From IMG/VR virus record IMGVR_UViG_3300042894_001153, positions 1 to 60,806 of that record: a stretch of DNA of 60,806 bases, one strand, 5' to 3'. Source of the stretch: a virus. Positions 6,914 through 20,031 of this stretch are shown here, piece after piece. Both the position numbers and the translations under genes were made by a program. The notes below the pieces were generated by a model that was given only the letters and a program-made list of their open reading frames with translations, was not told the origin of the DNA and did not search any database. The first letter of the stretch is position 1. Each line of letters starts with the position of its first letter.

Positions 6914-7372
6914 ATGACAAAATCAAAATACGTTTTTAAGCCATCAACAGACTACCTGAAATATTGGAGAGTGGTTAGGTACTACATCAGGGCAAAGTAT
7001 AAAATCAGCACAGCCGACTTAGATATCCTCCTGTTTTTATACTCAGAGGAATACTTTAGTAAGGATAAGTTTGATGAGTTCGACGAGATTATGTCTTGGG
7101 ACGTGAATAGATTTGATAGACTCCTTAGAGATAGTTGGATTGTTGTGTTCCGTAAAAGAGCCAAAGAAAAAGCGATGTACGAGATATCCTACAAATCTCG
7201 AAGAGTTATAGGATGGATGTATAAGTATCTTTCAGGTGAACCAATTTCCGAGAACAGAACAGTGAATCCACTATTCAAAAAGAATATATCGTATCAGGAT
7301 AAGGTCTATCGCAATATGATTATAGAGATGAATAAGTTTATAAGACAACAACGACATCTCTCTCGACAATAA
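6914..7372 (+). CDS. Possible winged-helix DNA-binding protein (152 aa), lone plus-strand gene
   Basis: A 152-residue basic protein. Its core STADLDILLFLYSEEYFSKD, a helical segment WDVNRFDRLLRDSW, and a following strand pair (IVVFRKR, MYEISYKSRRVI) are arranged like a MarR/PadR-type winged helix. It is the only gene on the plus strand within the 40-kb minus-strand block. Its last 35 bases overlap the end of groES on the other strand. A regulator of the early-to-late switch is plausible, but is inferred only from fold and position. Confidence 0.6.
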   Translation: MTKSKYVFKPSTDYLKYWRVVRYYIRAKYKISTADLDILLFLYSEEYFSKDKFDEFDEIMSWDVNRFDRLLRDSWIVVFRKRAKEKAMYEISYKSRRVIGWMYKYLSGEPISENRTVNPLFKKNISYQDKVYRNMIIEMNKFIRQQRHLSRQ

Positions 7373-7604
7373 TGGTATAGGTATCACCATTAATTACCAT
7401 AGTGTAGCCTGCTCTACTGTCGTAGTATATCTCATCGCCTTGGTTTATACCAACCACATCAGTGCCTGCCTTTACAATCTTACCTTTCTTGTACCTTAAC
7501 TGATTGGCATCCTCTGCCGATAGCAATAACCCTGAAGAGTGCTTTATCTCCTCCTCAATTGTTTTTATTAATATGTATTTGCCGATGGGTTGAAATTTAC
7601 TCAT
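7338..7604 (-). CDS. groES: GroES-like co-chaperonin
   Basis: This 88-residue protein matches 10-kDa chaperonins in length and layout. An N-terminal strand (PIGKYILIKTIEEE) is followed by a mobile-loop region with GLLL (residues about 24-28), a KKGKIVKAG strand, a GD turn (QGDEIYYDS) and a C-terminal strand (YTIIVERDVVVV). It should form the seven-subunit lid of the chaperonin encoded at 8806-10401. The mobile loop EEIKHSSGLLLS is shorter and more polar than host versions, which may tune it to the phage GroEL. The stop lies inside the end of the opposite-strand gene at 6914-7372. Confidence 0.85.
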   Translation of the reverse strand: MSKFQPIGKYILIKTIEEEIKHSSGLLLSAEDANQLRYKKGKIVKAGTDVVGINQGDEIYYDSRAGYTMVINGDTYTIIVERDVVVVL

Positions 7605-8275
7605 TTGTACTTAAATTTAATTTTTTTATTTAATGTTTTACTATTTACTTTATTAGTCTTTCCTTTTAAATTATTGGATATTGATGATTCCAAACAACCT
7701 AACTTATTAGAGGCCTCTCTTATAGAATAAAAACTTTCAATAAAATCACCTGTATAATAATCATAACATAGAACAGGAATAGCTGTTATTATTTTTGATT
7801 TATTAGATAGCCTCATTTTAGCTTTAACAGACTCAGGTGTTTTTTTTCCTATTCTTGATTTAGCTATGTTTTCTCTATGCTCTTTTGATTTTATTTTTCC
7901 CTTGTGAGCTAAAGATATTTTATTTTTCCATTCTTCAGTTCTTATCACAGCTTTTAAAGATTTAATTTTCTTTTTTAAAATATTACAAGAAAGTCCTTCA
8001 ACTGTAATCCCTCCTTTTGTTTGATTAATAAGTTGACCATTTTTTAAATCTATTCTTCCATATTTAGAGATAAGCTCTATTTCCAATTCAGAAGCTTGCT
8101 CCTTAGTAAGTCCATTTTTATATATTTCAACTATGCAACCATACTTATCTACTATTCTATTCCACCAAATAGACCTTTGCTTACAATACGCTCTTTTTAA
8201 GTCTCCCATCCCAATATAAAAAATAGAATTATCCGTTTCCTTTTTGTGAAGATATACAACTTTATTGTTTTCCAT
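7601..8275 (-). CDS. GIY-YIG homing endonuclease with NUMOD motifs
   Basis: A 224-residue free-standing endonuclease. The N-terminus has the GIY-YIG signature in the form VVYLHKK...IFYIGMG (residues about 7-24), followed by a family-like ASELEIELISKYG segment with a candidate catalytic Glu. Residues about 118-150 hold two NUMOD3-like helices (LAHKGKIKSKEHRENIAKS and RIGKKTPESVKAKM). Residues about 170-215 form a NUMOD1-like DNA-binding helix (SIREASNKLG...SSISNNLKGK). Such genes are selfish mobile elements that cut sites lacking them. It is more AT- and Lys-rich than its neighbours and interrupts the chaperonin operon, both signs of separate acquisition. It overlaps the groES start by 4 bases. 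Confidence 0.88.
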   Translation of the reverse strand: MENNKVVYLHKKETDNSIFYIGMGDLKRAYCKQRSIWWNRIVDKYGCIVEIYKNGLTKEQASELEIELISKYGRIDLKNGQLINQTKGGITVEGLSCNILKKKIKSLKAVIRTEEWKNKISLAHKGKIKSKEHRENIAKSRIGKKTPESVKAKMRLSNKSKIITAIPVLCYDYYTGDFIESFYSIREASNKLGCLESSISNNLKGKTNKVNSKTLNKKIKFKYK

Positions 8276-8558: not shown

Positions 8559-8809
8559 AATTCATCGTCAACCCATATCGGGGTCTGTGGCCCAACGTAA
8601 GCATCAAAGATATTGAACTCAGCGTACTCGATAGCCTCGTACCTATTACCTGTCTCCTTTGTGAGTATCTTAATCACCTTCTTTCTTGAGTACACAATCC
8701 TAAAGGTGTCCTGCTCAATTCCTATTATAGCTAAATCCAATCCATCAGCGAATACTAATCCATCCTTAGCGTAATGCTCGTACGTATCGATTATGTTCTG
8801 CTTCTTCAT
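8555..8809 (-). CDS. Hypothetical protein of the groEL operon (84 aa)
   Basis: An acidic 84-residue protein (MKKQNIIDTYEHYAKDGLVF...) with alternating strands and no recognised domain. It overlaps the groEL stop and the following gene's start by 4 bases each, so the three are probably co-translated. A chaperonin-related role cannot be shown. Confidence 0.65.
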   Translation of the reverse strand: MKKQNIIDTYEHYAKDGLVFADGLDLAIIGIEQDTFRIVYSRKKVIKILTKETGNRYEAIEYAEFNIFDAYVGPQTPIWVDDEL

Positions 8810-10401
8810 TCTGCTGAGTAGGTTCTTGCCATTGTGATAATGGCGTTGGTTGATAATATCGTTACTGCCACAGATACTGCGTTCTGAAGCGCACTTTTAG
8901 TTACCTTTAACGGGTCTATTACACCAAGCTCATACATATCTCCCCACACGTTGTTCTTCACATCAAGACCGTAGCTGTAATTCATATTAGCCATAACGAT
9001 ATCCTTTAATCCTGCGTTTCTCAAGATTTGATTCATCGGTGATGCTAATGCCTCGGCAAGTATCTTATCTGCAATAGATTGCTCACTTGTGTTTTTAGAT
9101 AGTATCTTAATAGCTTCTTTAAACAATGCAACTCCACCACCTGGGAGTATACCCTCCTCAAGTGCAGACCTCACAGCACAAACTGCATCATCCACTCTAT
9201 CGTAAAGCTCCTTCTGCTCTAAGTCTGTATTTCCACCTACGTAGATTACACCTACTCCACCTGATAAAGATGCAATCCTTGACAAAATAAATTCCTTATC
9301 AGCTTTCTTCTTAGAAATCCTGTGTGCAGACCATAACTGATTTACACGCTCTGTAATGGCTTCATTATTCTTTATGGACTTATCCCTTACCACGATGGTA
9401 GAATCCTTCTCTACGATGACTTTCTGTGCGTGTCCGAGGTCGTCTACGGTCATTATGCTAAGGTCGTCTCCTGTCTTCTCTGAGAAGTAGGTTGCTCCAA
9501 CCGTTAGTGCAATGTCCTGCATCAGCTCGTGCTGCTTGTAACCGAAGTTCGGTGGCTGTATCGCACATATCTTCAATCCGTTCTTCATCACGTTGGCAGC
9601 CAACGTATTTATCACGTTCTGAGAACACGGTGCTATAATAAGCAACTTCTTACCCTCGTTTATAATTGGTTTAAGTACGTTCTCAATGGTAAGTAAATTA
9701 TTTATCTCTGCATCACTCACAAGTACGTACGTGTCTTCAAAGACACAATCGTCCTTCTCGTGGTCTGTGACAAACAGGTTTGACATATACCCTCTGTCTA
9801 TCTTTAATCCATTGGTGGTCTCGTAGTACGTCTCAGAGGTCTGTGAGTTCGCTATCGTTACAATACCGTTCTTGCCAACTTTCTTGTACACGTCACTTAT
9901 GGTCTTACCCAAAGCTACGTCGTTGTTCGCTGAGATAATCGCAACATTCGCTAAGGTCGCATTTGATACCTTCCTTGAGTTTGCCTTTAGGCTATCAACC
10001 ACACCATTAGTTACAGTTACCATATCCCTTAACACTTGAGTCTTGTTCACACCATCAACGATGTACTTAAAGCCTGCTTTTACCAAGGCCTCGGTCAATA
10101 CTATCGCAGTGGTCGTGCCATCGCCTGCCGATGTCGCAGTCCTGTCTGCTGCCTCCTTCATCATCCTTACAGCCAAGTTTTCAATTGGGTCTAATAACTC
10201 AATCGACCTCGCAACAGTTACACCATCCTTAGTAACAGTAATTCCGTGTGTGTGATGTGGTGACTCTATTAGCACGGTCTGTCCACTTGGGCCAAGAGTT
10301 GACTTTACAGCCTTTGAGATTGTCTCTATACCCTTGAATAACTTTTCTCTTCCTTCCTCATCGAACTTGATGTCCTTTGGTGAGTATCCTAAATTTGACA
10401 T
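8806..10401 (-). CDS. groEL: Phage-encoded GroEL chaperonin
   Basis: A 531-residue group I chaperonin that would fold phage proteins in an ATP-driven barrel with the GroES lid encoded downstream. The ATP site is intact: TLGPSGQ (residues 35-41), VTKDGVTVAR (56-65) and AGDGTTTA (92-99), with the essential Asp in each of the last two. A conserved RVDDAVCAVRSALEEG segment holding the Asp equivalent to the ATP-hydrolysing residue, then GGGVAL, lies at about 395-425. It lacks the Gly-Met-rich tail of host GroEL and is about 15 residues shorter. Divergence in the apical domain (about 190-370) may adapt it to virion substrates. It heads an operon ending in groES. One copy of the genome-wide palindrome lies within it (9731-9746). 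Confidence 0.95.
   Translation of the reverse strand: MSNLGYSPKDIKFDEEGREKLFKGIETISKAVKSTLGPSGQTVLIESPHHTHGITVTKDGVTVARSIELLDPIENLAVRMMKEAADRTATSAGDGTTTAIVLTEALVKAGFKYIVDGVNKTQVLRDMVTVTNGVVDSLKANSRKVSNATLANVAIISANNDVALGKTISDVYKKVGKNGIVTIANSQTSETYYETTNGLKIDRGYMSNLFVTDHEKDDCVFEDTYVLVSDAEINNLLTIENVLKPIINEGKKLLIIAPCSQNVINTLAANVMKNGLKICAIQPPNFGYKQHELMQDIALTVGATYFSEKTGDDLSIMTVDDLGHAQKVIVEKDSTIVVRDKSIKNNEAITERVNQLWSAHRISKKKADKEFILSRIASLSGGVGVIYVGGNTDLEQKELYDRVDDAVCAVRSALEEGILPGGGVALFKEAIKILSKNTSEQSIADKILAEALASPMNQILRNAGLKDIVMANMNYSYGLDVKNNVWGDMYELGVIDPLKVTKSALQNAVSVAVTILSTNAIITMARTYSAE
9731..9746. repeat. Dispersed palindrome, copy 1 (inside groEL)
   Basis: GTGTCTTCAAAGACAC. It is read on the minus strand in the frame giving CVFEDT. 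Confidence 0.85.
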
Positions 10402-11094: not shown

Positions 11095-11170
11095 ACACGT
11101 GTGCGTGTGTGTACGTGTGTGTGTACGTGTGTATGTGTGTGCGTTATGCGTGTGTGTGTGCGTGTGCGCA
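11095..11170. repeat. Alternating purine-pyrimidine (TG/CG) tract
   Basis: About 76 bases consist almost only of TG, CG and a few AC/AT steps. This can adopt Z-DNA and is very unusual in an AT-rich phage. It sits in the divergent non-coding region. Confidence 0.9.
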
Positions 11171-11789: not shown

Positions 11790-12419
11790 ATGGAACAATT
11801 ACTAACAATCGAACAAAACTTTCTAAGTTTACCAACATCTAAGATGGGATTCAACCTTACTGAAGTTAACAAGGCAAAACGCCTAATTACAAATGCGCAA
11901 AAATCGAAGTTTGCACACACTATGCATTTAGCATCTTGCATCAAAACAGCTGTGGAGTATTTCGAGTCACCACAATGCCAAGCATTAATGCAGACTGAAG
12001 GTATATCTTGGAACAAGGAGGATTTAGGCATCAAGGTATTCGGATATCAAAAAAGCTATTTTCATAAATTGCTTAGGGCATCCAAGGTGAGTGAGCAAAT
12101 ATTGACTGCATACAACAGCAAATGTGACGAGATAGCAGATGCCGAGCGCAGTATTGCAGGACTGCTTGAATTTAGCAAGAACGTGAATGTAGAGGTGAGC
12201 GCAGATGCAACAGCAGAGGAGATTGAAGAAGCAACAGCAGAGGCAATTGAGAGTGCATCAATAGAGAGAACACCGACCATTTTCACAATGTCCTTTAAAA
12301 ATCCAAACGGATGCAATGTAGCTGTAAGGATTGATGCTGACGGCAAATTGAGTACTACCAACAGCACTGAGGATATTATGAACGCAATTGCTTTCCTACA
12401 AGCACAATTGACAGCCTAA
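11790..12419 (+). CDS. First early gene, unknown function (209 aa)
   Basis: A 209-residue, mostly helical protein. The N-terminal half (MEQLLTIEQNFLSLP..., with NAQKSKFAHTMHLASCIKTA) looks like a helical DNA-binding or regulatory domain, and YQKSYFHKLLRASKV resembles a helix-turn-helix. A run of Ala/Glu-rich sequence (about 135-155) then links to a beta-type C-terminal domain (TIFTMSFKNPNGCNVAVRID). It is the first gene behind the first rightward promoter, so it may be an early regulator or host-takeover protein. Not recognised as a named family. Confidence 0.65.
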   Translation: MEQLLTIEQNFLSLPTSKMGFNLTEVNKAKRLITNAQKSKFAHTMHLASCIKTAVEYFESPQCQALMQTEGISWNKEDLGIKVFGYQKSYFHKLLRASKVSEQILTAYNSKCDEIADAERSIAGLLEFSKNVNVEVSADATAEEIEEATAEAIESASIERTPTIFTMSFKNPNGCNVAVRIDADGKLSTTNSTEDIMNAIAFLQAQLTA

Positions 12420-12424
12420 AAATT

Positions 12425-12440
12425 GTGTCTTCAAGGACAC
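12425..12440. repeat. Dispersed palindrome, copy 3 (after a stop codon)
   Basis: GTGTCTTCAAGGACAC begins 6 bases after the stop of the first early gene. A GTG here could open the next frame, but the ATG at 12518 is the better start. Confidence 0.85.
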
Positions 12441-12517: not shown

Positions 12518-13417
12518 ATGGCAACAAAAACCAAAAAAATCGAAGAGTTAGTTTACACTACGGATGGCAATTCAGAAAGAGGCGAAGTACAGCACTATCA
12601 TCGTAAACCACACCCGAGGGAACTGCAAATTGGTGCAAAGCACACCGACATAGCACAGCTAAAGCCAAACCAAAAGCAAAACCTAATCAAGTTTGCCAAT
12701 GGGGACTACAGCTCAAAGTTCACCATCGGTTTTGAGGTCGAGAAAAACAGCCTATCAAGGGGCGCAGTCAAAGAGTATCCATTGTTTTGTGGATTCGAGC
12801 GTGATGGTAGCTGTGGTTACGAGGCAGTGACGAACATTTTGCCTTTGCTTCCATCGGGTAAATGGAGAAACAAAGTTTTCTCAATGATGGTAGATGCAAA
12901 GCGCATCATCGAAGACCAATACAGCCCATCTGATAGGAGATGTGGAGGTCATTGCACCATAGCTGTGGAGGGGATGGATGGTAGAGAGATAATGGAGATG
13001 GTAAGAAAGAATTGTGGTGTTATATGGGCAATGTTCAGAAATAGACTAAGCAATAGTTACTGCTCTCATAACCAAAGACTCATTACGGATTATGACCATA
13101 CACGTGATGGTAGCAGATACCATACAGCCTTAATCAAAGGCAATTGCTTAGAGTTTAGGCTTATTGCAAGGTTTCAATCGGTTAAACAAATGATGCGTAG
13201 GTATGAATTGTTTTATGAATTGGTAAACTTTAGTGTAAACAAGCCAAACGGAAAGTTCAAGGAGTTTTTGAAGATAGTAAAACCAATTGTACTATCTATG
13301 TATGAGGGTGATGTGGCAAAGACTGAAGAGATAATGACCTTATCGGTTAAGATGCAAGATTACATCAACGATGGTACTAACTGCGACGAAATCAGAGAGT
13401 TCGTGAGAGGTTGGTAG
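12518..13417 (+). CDS. Amidoligase (glutamine-synthetase-like fold)
   Basis: Starting at the ATG at 12518 it encodes 299 residues. Motifs typical of phage and bacterial amidoligases (Amidoligase_2-type, distant relatives of glutamine synthetase and glutamate-cysteine ligase) appear in order: GFEVE with two acidic metal ligands (71-75), RDGSCGYEAVT (95-105), CGGHCTIAV (142-150), an Arg-rich segment FRNRLSNSYC, and LEFRLIARFQS near residue 220 followed by a helix. Family members use ATP to form amide or peptide bonds. The substrate is unknown: a peptide tag, a nucleotide or the cell wall are possible. The GGHxH motif of relatives is GGHCT here. It shares the early block with a fused amidotransferase-cyclotransferase gene (15341-16426), a pairing reported for this family. 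The last base of the stop codon is the first base of a dispersed palindrome. Confidence 0.8.
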   Translation: MATKTKKIEELVYTTDGNSERGEVQHYHRKPHPRELQIGAKHTDIAQLKPNQKQNLIKFANGDYSSKFTIGFEVEKNSLSRGAVKEYPLFCGFERDGSCGYEAVTNILPLLPSGKWRNKVFSMMVDAKRIIEDQYSPSDRRCGGHCTIAVEGMDGREIMEMVRKNCGVIWAMFRNRLSNSYCSHNQRLITDYDHTRDGSRYHTALIKGNCLEFRLIARFQSVKQMMRRYELFYELVNFSVNKPNGKFKEFLKIVKPIVLSMYEGDVAKTEEIMTLSVKMQDYINDGTNCDEIREFVRGW

Positions 13418-13432
13418 TGTCTTCAAAGACAC
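13417..13432. repeat. Dispersed palindrome, copy 4 (on a stop codon)
   Basis: GTGTCTTCAAAGACAC. Its first G is the last base of the amidoligase TAG stop. Confidence 0.85.
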
Positions 13433-13433
13433 A

Positions 13434-13479
13434 AGCAAGGTTTGGAAGTTAATGTTGGGTTCGAGTCCCTTCCCTTGCT
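13434..13479 (+). other. Mini tRNA-like structure (acceptor stem plus T arm only)
   Basis: AGCAAGG (13434-13440) pairs with CCTTGCT (13473-13479) as a 7-bp acceptor-like stem. Between them is a T-loop-like GGGTTCGAGTCCC (13457-13469) with only 3 stem pairs. D and anticodon arms are missing; the whole is 46 nt. It may be a tRNA remnant, a recombination target or a tRNA mimic. It follows copy 4 of the palindrome and precedes a gene. Confidence 0.4.
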
Positions 13480-13497
13480 CTAATTTAATATAATAAA

Positions 13498-13815
13498 ATG
13501 GATACGTTAAACAAACAACAAATCGAAAATGTACTTAATGCCTACAAACAAATGGCTGAGAGTATAAGGTTATCAGACAATGAGACAGCACTTGCAATGT
13601 GCGATGCAAACTTTATGGATTTAGACATCGATAGGTATTGCAAAAAGGTTATGGGCTTGAACATAAACTTACTTGACATCGATGCAATCATCTTTGGTAG
13701 GGCTTATCACCTATATCCTACACCATACGGAATGGTTAATAGGTATAACAAGCATCCTTACGATGCATTGGTAGACAGAATCGTAATTTTAACAAAATAT
13801 TTAAACCAACAATAA
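13498..13815 (+). CDS. Hypothetical early protein (105 aa)
   Basis: A 105-residue helical protein (MDTLNKQQIENVLNAYKQMA...) with no known motif. It is followed one base later by a small membrane protein gene. The clean start, length and tight spacing support a real gene. Confidence 0.65.
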   Translation: MDTLNKQQIENVLNAYKQMAESIRLSDNETALAMCDANFMDLDIDRYCKKVMGLNINLLDIDAIIFGRAYHLYPTPYGMVNRYNKHPYDALVDRIVILTKYLNQQ

Positions 13816-13816
13816 T

Positions 13817-13969
13817 ATGAGAACTATCATCTTTACTTTAGCATCTTTCGTCGGTCTTTGGATGGTCTTCCAAGGCTTAGCGCATCAAAACGGACTAATG
13901 ATTATGGGCGCATTGCTTGTATTCTTTTCATCCTTACTTTTACTTTGGGCAGAAACAAAAAACAAATGA
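13817..13969 (+). CDS. Small two-helix membrane protein (50 aa)
   Basis: ATG 13817 to TGA 13969 encodes MRTIIFTLASFVGLWMVFQG and a second hydrophobic stretch (LMIMGALLVFFSSLLLLW) before a KNK tail. The stop overlaps the next ATG (ATGA). It is probably an inner-membrane protein. It could act in superinfection exclusion or host membrane modification; this is only inferred. Confidence 0.65.
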   Translation: MRTIIFTLASFVGLWMVFQGLAHQNGLMIMGALLVFFSSLLLLWAETKNK

Positions 13970-14340
13970 ACAATAAAAACATCAAGTTCTTTGAGATTGA
14001 GTACAATTACAAAGACAATCCGACAGCAGAAAAAAGGACAGCACTTGTAACCGATGCCGAGTACAGCAAGAAAGTATTTATGGACATCGATGATGAAATC
14101 TTCCACTACGATATGGACGAGGACTACCTGAAGGTATTGGTCGAGTTAGGTGGCAGTACGTTTAACGATTTCATAGTCTACAGCTACAAAGCAATCGAGA
14201 GTGTCCTTGAAGACACAAAGGAAGATAGAATGTACACCGAGATAGAGATGCGATTAGCATTTACGATGGGTAGTCTTCATCAAGTGACGGGAGTTAGTTC
14301 TATCGAGGAGGTATTAGAGAAATTAAATAAAAATATATGA
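13966..14340 (+). CDS. Hypothetical acidic protein (124 aa)
   Basis: The start at 13966 (MNNKNIKFFEIEYNYKDN) is chosen because it overlaps the upstream stop; the longer frame from 13858 runs through the membrane gene. The protein is acidic with a DIDDEIFHYDMDEDYL segment and no known domain. The palindrome copy at 14201 is read in frame as SVLEDTK. Confidence 0.65.
   Translation: MNNKNIKFFEIEYNYKDNPTAEKRTALVTDAEYSKKVFMDIDDEIFHYDMDEDYLKVLVELGGSTFNDFIVYSYKAIESVLEDTKEDRMYTEIEMRLAFTMGSLHQVTGVSSIEEVLEKLNKNI
14201..14216. repeat. Dispersed palindrome, copy 5 (in gene)
   Basis: GTGTCCTTGAAGACAC, translated as VLEDT. Confidence 0.85.
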
Positions 14341-14546
14341 ACAAAATAAATTTTGGCAAGGTTGTGACGATAGTTACAACAGCCGTAGCACTAATGATTT
14401 CAACAAGAGCAATCTTGAGCATCATCAAGGACATCGTATGCAATGAGCATTCATTCTTGGGCATTGCCCATAGGTTGACAATCATTTTCATCATCGCATC
14501 GTTAACATTTTTAGCAATTAAATTCCTAACCTATGAGGACAAGTAG
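14337..14546 (+). CDS. Small membrane protein (69 aa)
   Basis: Two hydrophobic segments (VVTIVTTAVALMIS at about 9-22; LTIIFIIASLTFLAIKFL at about 47-64) flank a short loop with a Cys. It overlaps the previous stop by 4 bases. Function unknown. Confidence 0.6.
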   Translation: MNKINFGKVVTIVTTAVALMISTRAILSIIKDIVCNEHSFLGIAHRLTIIFIIASLTFLAIKFLTYEDK

Positions 14547-14547
14547 T

Positions 14548-14952
14548 ATGATAACAATAGAAGATGTATCGAGTGTATGCAGTCAAATGGACTGCACACT
14601 CACACAAGAGCATATGCAATGGATAGTCGAAAACTATTCTCAATTCGAGATGGAAGACTCAACATCCAATTGGTCGGAGATAGTGGAGGATATTATTTAT
14701 AGAAATTTTAACGAACAAATCAAACATTATACGTTGTTAGATATAATGAATACAGAATTAAAAACATTATACGTTGTTAGATATAATGACGTATACGGAA
14801 ACGGAGACAAGCAAAAACTTGAGGTCATTGTTCAGGATAGGAATCAGTTCTTAGAATGGTTAGAAGAACACAATGAGTGCAGAGGTTCTGAGGACGAAGG
14901 CGAGGAAGAGTTCGATTTAATACCATTACCCCTATATAAACCAACAGTATGA
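14548..14952 (+). CDS. Hypothetical protein with a frame-shifted internal repeat (134 aa)
   Basis: The ATG at 14548 is one base after the previous stop; an ATG at 14533 is also possible. The protein is acidic, with an MITIEDVSSVCSQMD start and an EEHNECRGSEDEGEEEF segment near the end. The middle carries a 28-base DNA repeat read in two frames (HYTLLDIM, then TLYVVRYND). No family recognised. Confidence 0.6.
   Translation: MITIEDVSSVCSQMDCTLTQEHMQWIVENYSQFEMEDSTSNWSEIVEDIIYRNFNEQIKHYTLLDIMNTELKTLYVVRYNDVYGNGDKQKLEVIVQDRNQFLEWLEEHNECRGSEDEGEEEFDLIPLPLYKPTV
14722..14789. repeat. 28-base direct repeat inside a gene, shifted by one frame
   Basis: Exact 28-base copies at 14722-14749 and 14762-14789, starts 40 bases apart. 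Because 40 is not a multiple of 3, the copies encode different peptides. This points to a recent duplication. Confidence 0.9.
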
Positions 14953-15182
14953 GCGATGAACAATTGTACGACATAATGTGCATCGACGAGGATGGCTATG
15001 AAATAGCGCACCAAAGAGAGATGTCATACCTGAATGCCCACAAAGAAAAGAATCGCCTTGAGAGTCTGTATCCCAATATTGTATACTACCTATCGTTGTC
15101 AGTGTTAGAGGAAGAGGAGGAAGAGAGGCATTATAACGAACGTGCTGTAGATGGGTGGGAGGATATGTTCCCTGAGTATTAG
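14949..15182 (+). CDS. Hypothetical acidic protein (77 aa)
   Basis: MSDEQLYDIMCIDEDGYEIA..., with an EEEEEE run and a C-terminus EDMFPEY. It overlaps its upstream neighbour by 4 bases. The TAG stop donates its last base to palindrome copy 6. Function unknown. Confidence 0.65.
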   Translation: MSDEQLYDIMCIDEDGYEIAHQREMSYLNAHKEKNRLESLYPNIVYYLSLSVLEEEEEERHYNERAVDGWEDMFPEY

Positions 15183-15197
15183 TGTCTTTAAAGACAC
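15182..15197. repeat. Dispersed palindrome, copy 6 (on a stop codon)
   Basis: GTGTCTTTAAAGACAC, a perfect 16-base palindrome. Confidence 0.85.
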
Positions 15198-15212
15198 AAA
15201 ATTGTAGGATAG

Positions 15213-15251
15213 AGTATACATTAGGTGCAAAAATCAGGCTTAATGTATGCT
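15213..15251 (+). other. Hairpin between gene end and promoter
   Basis: AGTATACATTA (15213-15223) pairs with TAATGTATGCT (15241-15251) over 11 positions, with one G-T pair and a 17-base loop. There is no T-run behind it, so an intrinsic terminator is uncertain. An RNA stability or binding element is possible. Confidence 0.5.
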
Positions 15252-15284
15252 TTATCATACGTCAAAAAAATAAATAAAAATAAA

Positions 15285-15316
15285 TTTGGATAGTATATAT
15301 AATTGTACTATCTTTG
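15285..15316 (+). promoter_or_regulatory. Early promoter, cassette 1
   Basis: TTTG (15285-15288) and TATCTTTG (15309-15316), 20 bases apart, form an ideal Bacteroidota-type promoter 24 bases before the ATG at 15341. The surrounding bases (AATTTGGATAGT, then TACTATCTTTGTAC and TTAATTAAAC) recur at 19.15 kb. Confidence 0.8.
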
Positions 15317-15340
15317 TACCTTAATTAAACGAAATATAAT

Positions 15341-16426
15341 ATGTGCTTAATAATAATCAAACAAAAATCAAAAGAAGTATCAGCAGATGTACTAAAGTCT
15401 GCATCAAAAATCAACAGAGATGGGTTGGGTGTGGTGTGGTTGGATACCTACGAGGTAAGCTACCACAAGTCTAAGGAGTATGAGATTCTGAATACGGATA
15501 GACCATACATTGCACACTTCAGGTATGCGACGGTTGGTAAGGTCTGCATAGAAAATACTCATCCGTTTGTGTGTGGTAAGAACGAGAACGAATTGCTTAT
15601 GATGAACGGAACGATACGTGGCTTGGGTGATGCGAACAAGACAGACAGTAAGGTTCTTGCAGAGTCACTTGGAGATATCGATAGGGGAGCGTGGAGAGGT
15701 GAGTTAGCTAAGCATCCTTGTAGGTTCGTGACCATCAACAAAAAGACGAAGTCATTCGAGATATTCAATAAGCATCTATACACCCAAAAGAATGGTGTGT
15801 GGTACTCTAAAGACGAGGTGCTTGAGGATAACTATATGGCTGTGTACGGCACACTAAAGAAGGGTAACGGGAACTATTGGTCTTACTTGTATGGTTCAAC
15901 ACACGTTGGCAAGGGCAAGACAAAGGATTTGTATCCATTGCTAATCGAGGGGCTTCCGTATCTAATCAATGAGAAGGGAGTTGGTCATAACGTATCGGTA
16001 GATGTGTTCAAGGTGACTGACAGCGTACTAAAGAAAATAGATGCGTTAGAGGGGCATCCGAATTGGTATAGAAGGGAGCAGATACCAATTGTAGTTGGCA
16101 AGAAGGAGGTTATGTGTTGGGTATACTTTAACCCAAGGGAGTTGCGTTCTGATTCAGTTATGCATAAGTCATTCGAGTGGAGCGCACCACCAAAGAAGAT
16201 TGCGCATCAGCTACCATTGATACCAATTTCAAAGGATAAGAGTTTATTGGACGAGTGTACTCAGTACACGTATTGGGAGGACAAGTGGGATGATTTTGAC
16301 AGCATCAAGACACACAGTCCCGTATGCATTGGTTGTTACGGAGACGTGATAAACGATAACTTTGGTAACTACTACTGTAACAAGTGCGATAGTTGGTACT
16401 CAGAGAGCGAGGTGATTAAGTTTTAG
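15341..16426 (+). CDS. Class II glutamine amidotransferase + gamma-glutamylcyclotransferase + zinc ribbon
   Basis: A 361-residue three-part fusion. Residues 1 to about 155 are an Ntn-hydrolase amidotransferase domain: MC start with the nucleophile Cys2, RDGLGVVW, AHFRYATVG, THPF and MMNGTI. Residues about 163-265 are a GGCT/AIG2-like domain: AVYGTLKKGNGNY, the VDVFKVTD strand, and DALEGHPNWYRR with the catalytic-type Glu. A C-terminal CxxC...CxxC ribbon (about 333-352) may bind zinc. The first domain could release ammonia from glutamine or trim gamma-glutamyl groups, and the second could cleave gamma-glutamyl amides to pyroglutamate. Together with the amidoligase upstream this suggests making and breaking of a glutamyl-type amide on an unknown target. 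It has its own strong promoter and ends on palindrome copy 7. Confidence 0.82.
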   Translation: MCLIIIKQKSKEVSADVLKSASKINRDGLGVVWLDTYEVSYHKSKEYEILNTDRPYIAHFRYATVGKVCIENTHPFVCGKNENELLMMNGTIRGLGDANKTDSKVLAESLGDIDRGAWRGELAKHPCRFVTINKKTKSFEIFNKHLYTQKNGVWYSKDEVLEDNYMAVYGTLKKGNGNYWSYLYGSTHVGKGKTKDLYPLLIEGLPYLINEKGVGHNVSVDVFKVTDSVLKKIDALEGHPNWYRREQIPIVVGKKEVMCWVYFNPRELRSDSVMHKSFEWSAPPKKIAHQLPLIPISKDKSLLDECTQYTYWEDKWDDFDSIKTHSPVCIGCYGDVINDNFGNYYCNKCDSWYSESEVIKF

Positions 16427-16441
16427 TGTCTTTAAAGACAC
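16426..16441. repeat. Dispersed palindrome, copy 7 (on a stop codon)
   Basis: GTGTCTTTAAAGACAC, sharing its first base with the TAG stop. Confidence 0.85.
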
Positions 16442-17455: not shown

Positions 17456-17674
17456 ATGATAACACCAAAAGAAAAAGCTGAAGAGTTAGTCCTAAAGTTC
17501 AAGGAAGTCTCTATGGGATATGGATTCAATGATGCAATGTGGTATATACCATCAGATGTGGCAAGGCTATTAGCATTGCGTTGTGTTGATGAGATATTAG
17601 ATGCAGTTACTACCATCGCAGATAAACAGTACGATTATTGGCAAGAAGTAAAACAAGAAATAAAATTATTATGA
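17456..17674 (+). CDS. Small helical phage protein (72 aa)
   Basis: MITPKEKAEELVLKFKEVSM, then ARLLALRCVDEILDAV and a YDYWQEVKQEI end. This layout (TPKEKAxELVxKF...AKxxALxxVDEI) is common in small Bacteroidota phage proteins of unknown role. It overlaps the next gene by 4 bases. Confidence 0.7.
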   Translation: MITPKEKAEELVLKFKEVSMGYGFNDAMWYIPSDVARLLALRCVDEILDAVTTIADKQYDYWQEVKQEIKLL

Positions 17675-17901
17675 CAATAAAATTTATAATTTGCGTTCAG
17701 ATAGAGCGATTGCATCGGTACGTATTTGACAATGTATACGTATCAGACAATCGTAGTTGGGGCGCAAGGTATGTGCCAAGGAGATGGGATAAGACAGCAG
17801 TAAGATGCCTTTTTATATTGGCGAAGTTGTTCCCTGACTATAGGAGTTATTTAAGAAAGAATAGTACCAATCCAAAATATTTAAGATATACAATATTATG
17901 A
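17671..17901 (+). CDS. Hypothetical basic protein (76 aa)
   Basis: The start at 17671 (MTIKFIICVQIERLHRY) overlaps the previous stop. The protein is strongly basic and aromatic (SWGARYVPRRWDK, DYRSYLRKN). It overlaps the following gene by 4 bases. No family recognised. Confidence 0.6.
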   Translation: MTIKFIICVQIERLHRYVFDNVYVSDNRSWGARYVPRRWDKTAVRCLFILAKLFPDYRSYLRKNSTNPKYLRYTIL

Positions 17902-18065
17902 GCAGTAAAGACCATAACATAGAGTACATAAAGCTAAAGGAGAGGTACAGAACACTATCGGAGTTGGATGCATCTGCGAGTAGCGAACACAAAATGCATA
18001 TTAAGATAAACAAATTATTAAAAGAAACACTTAGACAAATTTTAAATTATGACTTCAAAAAATAA
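17898..18065 (+). CDS. Small helical protein (55 aa)
   Basis: ATG 17898 to TAA 18065 encodes MSSKDHNIEYIKLKERYRTL and a helical remainder (HKMHIKINKLLKETLRQIL). The ATGAG start overlaps the preceding stop and its end overlaps the next ATG, consistent with coupled translation. Function unknown. Confidence 0.55.
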   Translation: MSSKDHNIEYIKLKERYRTLSELDASASSEHKMHIKINKLLKETLRQILNYDFKK

Positions 18066-18345
18066 AAGTGTCCTTGAAGACACAAAGCAAACTGCACTAC
18101 AGCAATTGATAGAGAAGCTAAAGATGGACATCGATTACTACGATTCATTATTAAGCCAAGAGGACTACAAGGCTTACCACAAAGGTCTTATTGCTAAAAA
18201 AACACAAGCACATAGCACATTAGACGATGCAGAGAGTCTATTGGGAATAGAGAAAGAGCAGATAGAAAATGCTTATAGAGATGGTAGAATAGAAGCAAAT
18301 ATTCCCAAAGAATTTAATGTAAAAGGAGAACATTATCATAAATAA
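18049..18345 (+). CDS. Hypothetical helical protein (98 aa)
   Basis: MTSKNKSVLEDTKQTALQQL and long amphipathic helices (LIEKLKMDIDYYDSLLSQED, GIEKEQIENAYRDG), probably a coiled coil. The N-terminal VLEDT is encoded by palindrome copy 8, the same peptide as in the gene at 13966. Function unknown. Confidence 0.65.
   Translation: MTSKNKSVLEDTKQTALQQLIEKLKMDIDYYDSLLSQEDYKAYHKGLIAKKTQAHSTLDDAESLLGIEKEQIENAYRDGRIEANIPKEFNVKGEHYHK
18068..18083. repeat. Dispersed palindrome, copy 8 (in gene)
   Basis: GTGTCCTTGAAGACAC, translated as VLEDT. Confidence 0.85.
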
Positions 18346-18346
18346 A

Positions 18347-18598
18347 ATGAACAGCTTAAACAAATACCCTAACGGGTTCGACAAGTACCTTAACGCACTA
18401 ATGAAGTTGCTTAGGGTTGATTTTAAAAACGTGTCAGTTAACAGAGGCAGAGAGGCAGTGACCTTCTTTTACTCAGACACAGAGGGAGACCATCAAATGA
18501 GTATATACAACGGGTATATGCAAAAGTGTTTTGAGGGTTCAGTTATGCCAAGGGAGATAGAATACTTACTCATAGAAGGAGATGAGACTAAAGAGTAA
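18347..18598 (+). CDS. Hypothetical protein (83 aa)
   Basis: MNSLNKYPNGFDKYLNALMK, a mixed alpha/beta small protein with VTFFYSDTEGDHQMSIYNG. It starts 1 base after the previous stop. No known domain. Confidence 0.6.
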   Translation: MNSLNKYPNGFDKYLNALMKLLRVDFKNVSVNRGREAVTFFYSDTEGDHQMSIYNGYMQKCFEGSVMPREIEYLLIEGDETKE

Positions 18599-18599
18599 T

Positions 18600-18902
18600 A
18601 TGAGCTTCAATAAAGAGAACAGACGATGTCCTAAGTGCGATAGCGATTGGGATGGTGGTTCAATTGTAGAAACCTTCAAGGAGAAAAGAGACAATGGAGA
18701 GCAGTTCTATAAGTGTATGAGTGATGATGATATTGATAAGATGGTAGATGAGCTTTACAGACCACCATATAGATGGGGAAGGGAGATAGGCATTGAGTTG
18801 CCGTATGACCATCCAAATCACTACGATGGCATATCGTACATCAAGTGTCCTGACTGTGAGGCTATATTTGATAGATGGAGTGGAGAGGAAACAATATTAT
18901 GA
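18600..18902 (+). CDS. Zinc-ribbon-type protein (100 aa)
   Basis: The start at 18600 (MSFNKENRRCPKCDSDW) abuts the previous stop. It contains two CxxC pairs (RRCPKCDSDWDGG near the N-terminus; KCPDCEAIFDRW near the C-terminus) with a charged middle, so it probably folds around one zinc ion. Small zinc-ribbon proteins are common in phage early regions and may bind nucleic acid. It overlaps the next gene by 4 bases. Confidence 0.65.
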   Translation: MSFNKENRRCPKCDSDWDGGSIVETFKEKRDNGEQFYKCMSDDDIDKMVDELYRPPYRWGREIGIELPYDHPNHYDGISYIKCPDCEAIFDRWSGEETIL

Positions 18903-19060
18903 AAGGAGTAAAGCCAAGACCAAATGACATTCGGGAGAATGGTGCTGAGAAAAGAGAGAGAACTTTAAATGACTTAATAAAAAAAGCAAAGGAAAAAGGT
19001 TTAATACATTCAATAAAATATGAGCAAGCTAATAGCACGAACGATAGTTCCAAAGAATAG
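18899..19060 (+). CDS. Hypothetical basic protein (53 aa)
   Basis: ATG 18899 (MKGVKPRPNDIRENGAEKRE), overlapping the previous stop. It is highly charged and helical, and ends in STNDSSKE. The next small frame starts 41 bases before its end. Confidence 0.5.
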   Translation: MKGVKPRPNDIRENGAEKRERTLNDLIKKAKEKGLIHSIKYEQANSTNDSSKE

Positions 19061-19157
19061 ACCTACGTTCAACACTTGGATGAAGTATATCCATAACGAA
19101 ATAAATAAAGTGTCTTCGAAGACACAACAAAAAATACTTAAAAATAAATTTGGATAG
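19020..19157 (+). CDS. Very small protein containing the palindrome (45 aa)
   Basis: ATG 19020 to TAG 19157 encodes MSKLIARTIVPKNRPTFNTW and an end (KILKNKFG) that overlaps the -33 box of the next promoter. The palindrome copy is read as VSSKTQ. It is basic and possibly nucleic-acid binding. It could also be a non-coding leader. Confidence 0.4.
   Translation: MSKLIARTIVPKNRPTFNTWMKYIHNEINKVSSKTQQKILKNKFG
19110..19125. repeat. Dispersed palindrome, copy 9
   Basis: GTGTCTTCGAAGACAC, a perfect 16-base palindrome. Confidence 0.85.
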
Positions 19158-19180
19158 TTAATTCTATTATACTATCTTTG
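19149..19180 (+). promoter_or_regulatory. Early promoter, cassette 2
   Basis: TTTG (19149-19152) and TATCTTTG (19173-19180), 20 bases apart, 27 bases before the ATG at 19208. It shares its flanks with the promoter at 15.3 kb, including the downstream TTAATTAAAC block. Confidence 0.8.
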
Positions 19181-19207
19181 TACTTTAATTAAACAAAATA
19201 TAATCAA

Positions 19208-19435
19208 ATGAACATTTTCAGAATCAAAACAACATCGTGGCAGGAGGAAGACTTTATACTAATGACCACATTAACAGAGGAGCAGATAGACAAGGTGCTG
19301 TCTCCAATCGTAGACCAAGAGAGAGAAGGAAGCAGTGAGTACGACAATGACTCATTAGTAAAGGATTTAGAGGATGCGTATCCATTAGCTATAATCGAAC
19401 AGTACAGTACGGAATTAACAACCATAATAATCTAA
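19208..19435 (+). CDS. Hypothetical acidic protein (75 aa)
   Basis: MNIFRIKTTSWQEEDFILMT, beginning like small strand-helix phage proteins, with an acidic middle. It is the first gene behind promoter cassette 2. Function unknown. Confidence 0.65.
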   Translation: MNIFRIKTTSWQEEDFILMTTLTEEQIDKVLSPIVDQEREGSSEYDNDSLVKDLEDAYPLAIIEQYSTELTTIII

Positions 19436-19439
19436 GGAT

Positions 19440-19685
19440 ATGGCAAGATTAATCAAAGCAAACAATTTCATCACCAACGACGTAGATATATCAACGCTTG
19501 AGAGGATGCAGAAGCTTGTCGGTGGGTACATAGAGCTTGTGTACCGACACGCTGAGGGAAAGATACTAATATGTAACGAGGAAGGGTTACTATTAGACCT
19601 ACCCGAAAACGAGCAGATACTAAAGAAGTACGGCATCCATCTATGTGGAGACGTGATAGAGGCAACATCAGAAGAATTAAATTAA
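19440..19685 (+). CDS. Hypothetical protein (81 aa)
   Basis: MARLIKANNFITNDVDISTL, continuing MQKLVGGYIELVY..., then ILICNEEGLLLDLPEN and LCGDVIEA. The pattern LExMQKLVGGxIE...LxxNEEGxLxxLPxN resembles a small conserved family (DUF3846-like) seen in phages and mobile elements. The function is not known. It starts 4 bases after its neighbour. Confidence 0.65.
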   Translation: MARLIKANNFITNDVDISTLERMQKLVGGYIELVYRHAEGKILICNEEGLLLDLPENEQILKKYGIHLCGDVIEATSEELN

Positions 19686-19686
19686 A

Positions 19687-20031
19687 ATGAATCAAAAATT
19701 AAATGACCTAATTCTCAAGGAGAAAATGTCAACCAACCCGAACAAGAGCAAGATACTATTCTTGCAGAATGCGATGGACAAAGGTCTATCAATAGAAGGC
19801 TTTCGTAATTCAGGACGCATAGTAACCAAGGAGGACTTCCTTAAGCAGTTTGTTATACCACCACAGTTGGAGAAGAGTTCGACAGACGTGATGGAGTACT
19901 TTGATGGTAGCTATATTCAGATGTTCCCTGATGGACTGTATGGCATCTACGATGAGAGTGGCTTTATGTATATGTCTCACAAGCTAAATGATATTGAGGA
20001 GGTATTGTTCAAGAGATTTAATAATGAATAG
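19687..20031 (+). CDS. Hypothetical protein (114 aa)
   Basis: MNQKLNDLILKEKMSTNPNK..., with a mixed alpha/beta C-terminal half (YFDGSYIQMFPDGLYGIYDE). Overlaps the next gene by 8 bases. Not recognised. Confidence 0.6.
   Translation: MNQKLNDLILKEKMSTNPNKSKILFLQNAMDKGLSIEGFRNSGRIVTKEDFLKQFVIPPQLEKSSTDVMEYFDGSYIQMFPDGLYGIYDESGFMYMSHKLNDIEEVLFKRFNNE

Follow-up and report, generated by a model that had tools for sequence, protein, structure and literature searches.

The viral contig IMGVR_UViG_3300042894_001153, a 60.8-kb IMG/VR virus record analysed over its full length (positions 1 to 60,806; hereafter the window), carries amidoligase, glutamine amidotransferase (GAT) and gamma-glutamylcyclotransferase (GGCT) functions linked in its early region. 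They are encoded by only two genes, one for an amidoligase (12518-13417, + strand) and one for a fused protein (15341-16426, + strand) that is predicted to combine a class-II glutamine amidotransferase (GAT-II) domain, a gamma-glutamylamine cyclotransferase (GGACT) domain and a zinc ribbon. Judged from sequence, this pair is a reduced and fused variant of the amidoligase/GAT-II/GGCT cassette of other phages. We propose that it makes and cleaves glutamyl-type amides, perhaps on a peptidoglycan precursor of the host, a reading to which we assign a probability of about 0.5. What is new here is a two-gene set in which the usually separate GAT-II and GGACT are fused; the enzyme set was already known, and our literature search excluded Iyer 2009 and Hardies 2013, so that an earlier description of the fusion could have been missed. 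An initial annotation of this DNA had placed the two genes among the amidoligase systems described by comparative genomics, a kinship that our analysis supports.

The fused protein has 361 aa and an MC N-terminus. Its first domain (15341-15790, + strand), a putative Ntn-type amidotransferase, contains Cys2 and the motifs HFRYATVG...NTHPF and MNGTI, which correspond to HxRxATxG and the NG oxyanion pair. These elements, together with N72, H74, P75 and F76, are invariant in the 20 closest relatives, and C2, H59, R61, T64, G66, H74, N89 and G90 are common to seven diverse phage GATs. Its GAT-II Pfam scores fall under the cut-off (PF13230, 19.5 versus 23 bits; PF13522, 17.7 versus 27 bits), and a Foldseek structure search matched glutaminase domains with E values from 6.5e-6 to 1e-4, among them GFAT (6.5e-6) and GlmS (4e-5). 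The second domain (GGACT/AIG2; 15839-16177, + strand) matches PF06094 at residues 167-279 (E 1.7e-20; 74.2 bits versus a cut-off of 22.8) and matches human and mouse GGACT (3juc, 1vkb) both by sequence and by structure (E 4e-8 to 6e-8). YGTL 169-172 aligns with Y7-L10 of GGACT and E237 with the catalytic E82; 3jud, the structure of the E82Q mutant, is also among the structure-search matches. The domain therefore shares the YGTL loop and catalytic Glu with human and mouse GGACT, whereas its position behind a GAT-II domain and before a zinc ribbon has no parallel in them. In the zinc ribbon (16325-16387, + strand), the four cysteines C329xxC332...C346xxC349 are invariant in the 20 closest relatives. 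The initial annotation had proposed these three domains, and all of them are borne out; the Ntn and GGCT pockets keep their active-site residues, and their folds match GFAT/GlmS and GGACT.

The upstream gene is predicted to encode a divergent relative of Amidoligase_2 (PF12224), a carboxylate-amine ligase of glutamine-synthetase fold with 299 aa, that lies beyond Pfam's reach. An in-frame GTG 93 bp upstream could lengthen the ORF; its relatives start near 12518. By itself the sequence matched nothing in Pfam, in PHROG or among PDB sequences, and neither it nor its IMG/VR relatives had a PF12224 match above the Pfam cut-off. However, a profile of 20 relatives matched eight phage PF12224 proteins with 95.1% probability (E 3e-8, hhalign), with the five family motifs lining up, while the fused protein, used as a control against the same profile, reached 1.7%. 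The motifs named in the initial annotation, GFEVE (71-75), DGSCGYE (96-102), GGH (within CGGH, 142-145) and EFR (within LEFR, 211-214), are in place and agree with this profile match. The protein shares with PF12224 the set GxExE, DxS..E, GxH(xH) (here CGxH), C..N (here YC..N) and ExR, and differs from it in the loss of the second His of HxH, a long insert, a helical C-terminal tail and the lack of an hmmscan match. G71, E73, E75, D96, E102, G143, H145, R176, N185, E212 and R214 are invariant even among the divergent set. The AlphaFold2 model reaches medium confidence (pLDDT 74, pTM 0.79), and its best PDB folds, PafA, gamma-glutamylmethylamide synthetase (GmaS), glutamine synthetase and YbdK, all belong to one superfamily and are weak matches (E 0.013-0.2, TM about 0.3). 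Against the predicted viral proteins of BFVD, the model matches amidoligases with E<=1e-4, including those of Aeromonas LAh_9, Vibrio Vp_R1, Pseudomonas tf and crAss-like phages. The ATP/metal site expected for such an enzyme is borne out only weakly: its ligand residues are conserved, but the model has medium confidence and a weak glutamine-synthetase fold match.

The pairing of the two genes, like their protein families and intact active-site residues, is evident in the sequences, and the two form an obligate unit. They lie 1.9 kb apart, close to the 2 kb first noted. An alignment scan of IMG/VR returned 190 relatives of the fused protein (a single-sequence scan with over-specific patterns returned none), and linkage was assessed in about 80 contigs. 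The ligase gene lay upstream on the same strand in 75 of the 80 contigs found via the fused gene, and the fused gene lay downstream in 67 of the 77 found via the ligase; the other 5 and 10 contigs end too early, which gives 75/75 and 67/67 where there was room. Order and strand are kept in about 80 relatives with 50-65% identity. In an independent sample of 20 contigs picked by terminase and not by the cassette, nine had both genes, 11 had neither (most of these being fragments) and none had a single one. This co-occurrence rules out chance neighbours and agrees with the association suggested by the initial annotation. Mirror-tree correlations of the pair (r 0.73-0.85, uncorrected for phage phylogeny) add little. 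In contig G011, a TerL relative in which the flanking Sak and GroEL genes are present, both cassette genes are absent and only small ORFs lie in between; since the flanks are intact, this indicates a dispensable cassette that is gained or lost whole.

The small membrane and acidic proteins encoded between the two genes had been suggested as their partners or targets. Small ORFs do exist there, two of them hydrophobic by eye, but relatives were found in only 0-6 of 80 syntenic loci, and we therefore rejected them in that role. It should be noted that one relative of the fused gene (G009:C1:45484-46590, record of L254) is intact except for a single in-frame TAG, possibly reflecting TAG recoding or a sequencing error.

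We infer the biochemistry of both proteins from their families. The amidoligase would activate a carboxylate with ATP, most likely the gamma-carboxylate of glutamate or a peptide carboxylate, and join it to an amine. The GAT-II half would hydrolyse glutamine or a gamma-glutamyl amide via Cys2 and could feed ammonia to the ligase, and the GGACT half would remove or trim gamma-glutamyl groups, released as 5-oxoproline. A free gamma-glutamyl group would be the common denominator of the two halves, and the fact that they are fused speaks for amidotransferase and cyclotransferase working in one pathway. The substrate might be a cytosolic peptide, most likely a Bacteroidota peptidoglycan precursor altered early in infection, and the change might serve to shut out rival phages or to ready the cell for lysis. 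In published annotations, such sets are called a peptidoglycan modification cassette, with the proposed role of preventing superinfection or preparing for lysis (PMC5498523, PMC6256558, PMC11945000), and a homologous cassette is expressed immediately in HP1-infected cells (PMC7082346). The host very likely belongs to the Bacteroidota, because the terminase relatives of the window phage are Flavobacterium elemo and Cellulophaga phages and the cassette matches in bacterial genome bins, two loci only, are in metagenome-assembled genomes of Cytophagales and Flavobacteriales. Neither cassette protein was matched in those cultured terminase relatives.

Several points weigh against the proposed reading. 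The cassette itself contains no peptidoglycan enzyme, and the ORFs scanned hold neither the ATP-grasp enzyme nor the second ligase known from the full cassette: no ATP-grasp or PF14395 ligase match was found among the Pfam-scanned window ORFs, with most structural ORFs outside the scan, and every early-region ORF over 200 aa either has another function or encodes a conserved 209-aa protein described below. GGACT chemistry requires a gamma-L-glutamyl group with a free alpha-amino group; in the stem peptide, the D-glutamate carries an N-acyl group, which makes a direct role of GGACT on normal peptidoglycan awkward. In addition, the amidoligase model has only medium confidence (pLDDT 74) with weak PDB fold matches, and our literature search found no experiment or biochemical test on any cassette member.

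Small-molecule chemistry is a possible but unlikely explanation. Here the ligase would use methylamine, polyamines or some other amine of the host to build a gamma-glutamyl amine, as GmaS and PuuA do, and GGACT and GAT-II would recycle it; the purpose would be to supply a metabolite or to remove an amine signal rather than to act on the cell wall. Each half of the fused protein belongs to a family that recognises the free gamma-glutamyl group, the closest cyclotransferase is a gamma-glutamylamine enzyme, and gamma-glutamylmethylamide synthetase and YbdK are among the best PDB folds for the ligase. However, these fold matches are weak (E 0.01-0.2), no amine-handling gene lies nearby, and the ATP-grasp peptide ligases present in many unfused phage cassettes point to peptide products instead.

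Less probable again is a simple glutamine-dependent amidation, in which ammonia from GAT-II would pass to the ligase and end up as a primary carboxamide of a peptide or of a surface precursor, and GGACT would only clear gamma-glutamyl by-products. The GAT-II residues match those of ammonia-producing enzymes, and a ligase with GAT-II but without GGCT is common in other phages. However, GGACT is fused and invariant here, and other phages (Bacillus 035JT001, Geobacillus GR1) keep a ligase and GGCT without GAT, suggesting that GGCT is not a mere accessory.

We rank lower still, as improbable, the reversible protein tag favoured by the initial annotation, in which a PafA-like ligase would put a glutamyl-type group or peptide on a host or phage protein and the fused protein would trim it. 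The PafA-Pup ligase is the best PDB match (E 0.013), the zinc ribbon could recruit a target, and ligase and GGACT would make a write/trim pair. However, the PafA match is weak and is one that every glutamine-synthetase fold shares, the cassette loci showed no conserved small gene that could serve as carrier or target, and GGACT, as far as known, acts on free gamma-glutamyl amines and not on intact proteins; a ligase with a cyclotransferase also fits peptidoglycan-precursor or small-amine chemistry. Last among these, and doubtful, is a minimal system that writes and trims gamma-glutamyl conjugates and acts on a host protein or a signal instead of peptidoglycan, in which the ligase would write the mark and the fused enzyme, guided by its zinc ribbon, would supply ammonia or hydrolyse and cyclise the mark. 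Hypermodification of phage DNA through amide chemistry is very improbable: phage DNA with bases that bear amino-acid-like groups is known, but no base-modification gene was found in the Pfam-scanned window ORFs, the small ORFs at 17456-20031 and most structural ORFs lying outside the scan.

Upstream of the cassette, a conserved gene for a 209-aa protein (11790-12419, + strand) adjoins the amidoligase gene and is the first of the rightward early block, in which transcription begins near 11.8 kb and reaches about 28.9 kb. Relatives of this gene are present in 67 of 80 and 72 of 76 loci, in most of them 6-683 bp upstream of the ligase (median 80 bp). Searches of Pfam and PHROG gave no credible domain match for the protein, whose central part looks helix-turn-helix-like by eye; it is possibly a regulator. 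The non-coding divergent region separating the leftward and rightward blocks holds a tract rich in GT/TGTGCG repeats (11099-11166). The window also contains phage-encoded genes for Cpn10 (7338-7604) and a GroEL-like chaperonin (8806-10401), with a NUMOD1-containing homing-endonuclease-like gene (7601-8275) sited between them.

A dispersed 16-bp palindrome, GTGTCYTYRARGACAC (GTGTCN6GACAC), flanks both cassette genes. It lies between the 209-aa gene and the amidoligase gene (12425-12440), at the amidoligase stop codon (13417-13432), upstream of the fused gene (15182-15197) and at the fused-gene stop codon (16426-16441). The window has 14 copies, starting at 9731, 11474, 12425, 13417, 14201, 15182, 16426, 18068, 19110, 22358, 26792, 35194, 49500 and 56586, where 0.06 would be expected for an 18-mer with 3 mismatches. 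The copies cluster in the rightward early block, bracket many early genes and often begin at a stop codon. Among relatives, the palindrome was found in 142 of 158 loci at about 0.46 per kb and almost never within the two cassette genes. In palindrome-bearing loci it occurs just upstream of the ligase in 41/61 and of the fused gene in 49/67, and just downstream of them in 34/61 and 48/67, respectively, compared with about 6% expected from its density. It is also seen in contigs where no cassette was found and is missing from the cassette-bearing G009, indicating that it is not part of the cassette. It may be an operator, an RNA hairpin or processing site, or an exchange point.

Amidoligase cassettes occur widely among phages, and their label has stayed the same since 2009. 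The two-gene form, in which one protein unites two of the three activities, is the simplest for expression and assays, and the divergent ligase found here indicates that the amidoligase family is wider than Pfam detects. In the synthesis of ergothioneine, EgtA, a ligase of the glutamine-synthetase superfamily, adds a gamma-glutamyl group and EgtC, an Ntn Cys2 amidohydrolase, removes it; their subfamilies differ from those of the window pair, and no ergothioneine genes were found among the window genes identified.

The 'peptidoglycan modification' cassette of phiEco32, RIO-1 and LUZ24, reportedly treated in Iyer 2009 and Hardies 2013, is the system with which our proposal of peptidoglycan-precursor chemistry is best compared. 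The phiEco32 block holds GGACT, an ATP-grasp enzyme, GAT, a PF12224 amidoligase and a PF14395 ligase together and unfused. As in the window, the amidoligase, GAT-II and GGACT of phiEco32 (gp77, gp83, gp84) share an early block, and phiEco32 gp83, a long GAT-II protein with several C-terminal cysteine pairs, parallels the zinc ribbon of the window protein. In contrast to the phiEco32/RIO-1/LUZ24 cassette, the window set has GAT-II and GGACT fused and a ligase outside Pfam's reach, and it belongs to a Bacteroidota podovirus. Elsewhere, Vibrio 1.293.O has a longer unfused enzyme set, and Arthrobacter Salgado and Ottawa and Acinetobacter 313 and MEP402 have a ligase and GAT. Phage C75C1 carries the same GAT-II-GGACT fusion (41% identical) in the same gene order, whereas its fused protein lacks the zinc ribbon and its ligase is a canonical PF12224 member (3.5e-30) only 21% identical to that of the window. 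The occurrence of the fusion beside such a different ligase suggests that more than one kind of ligase can partner the fused protein.

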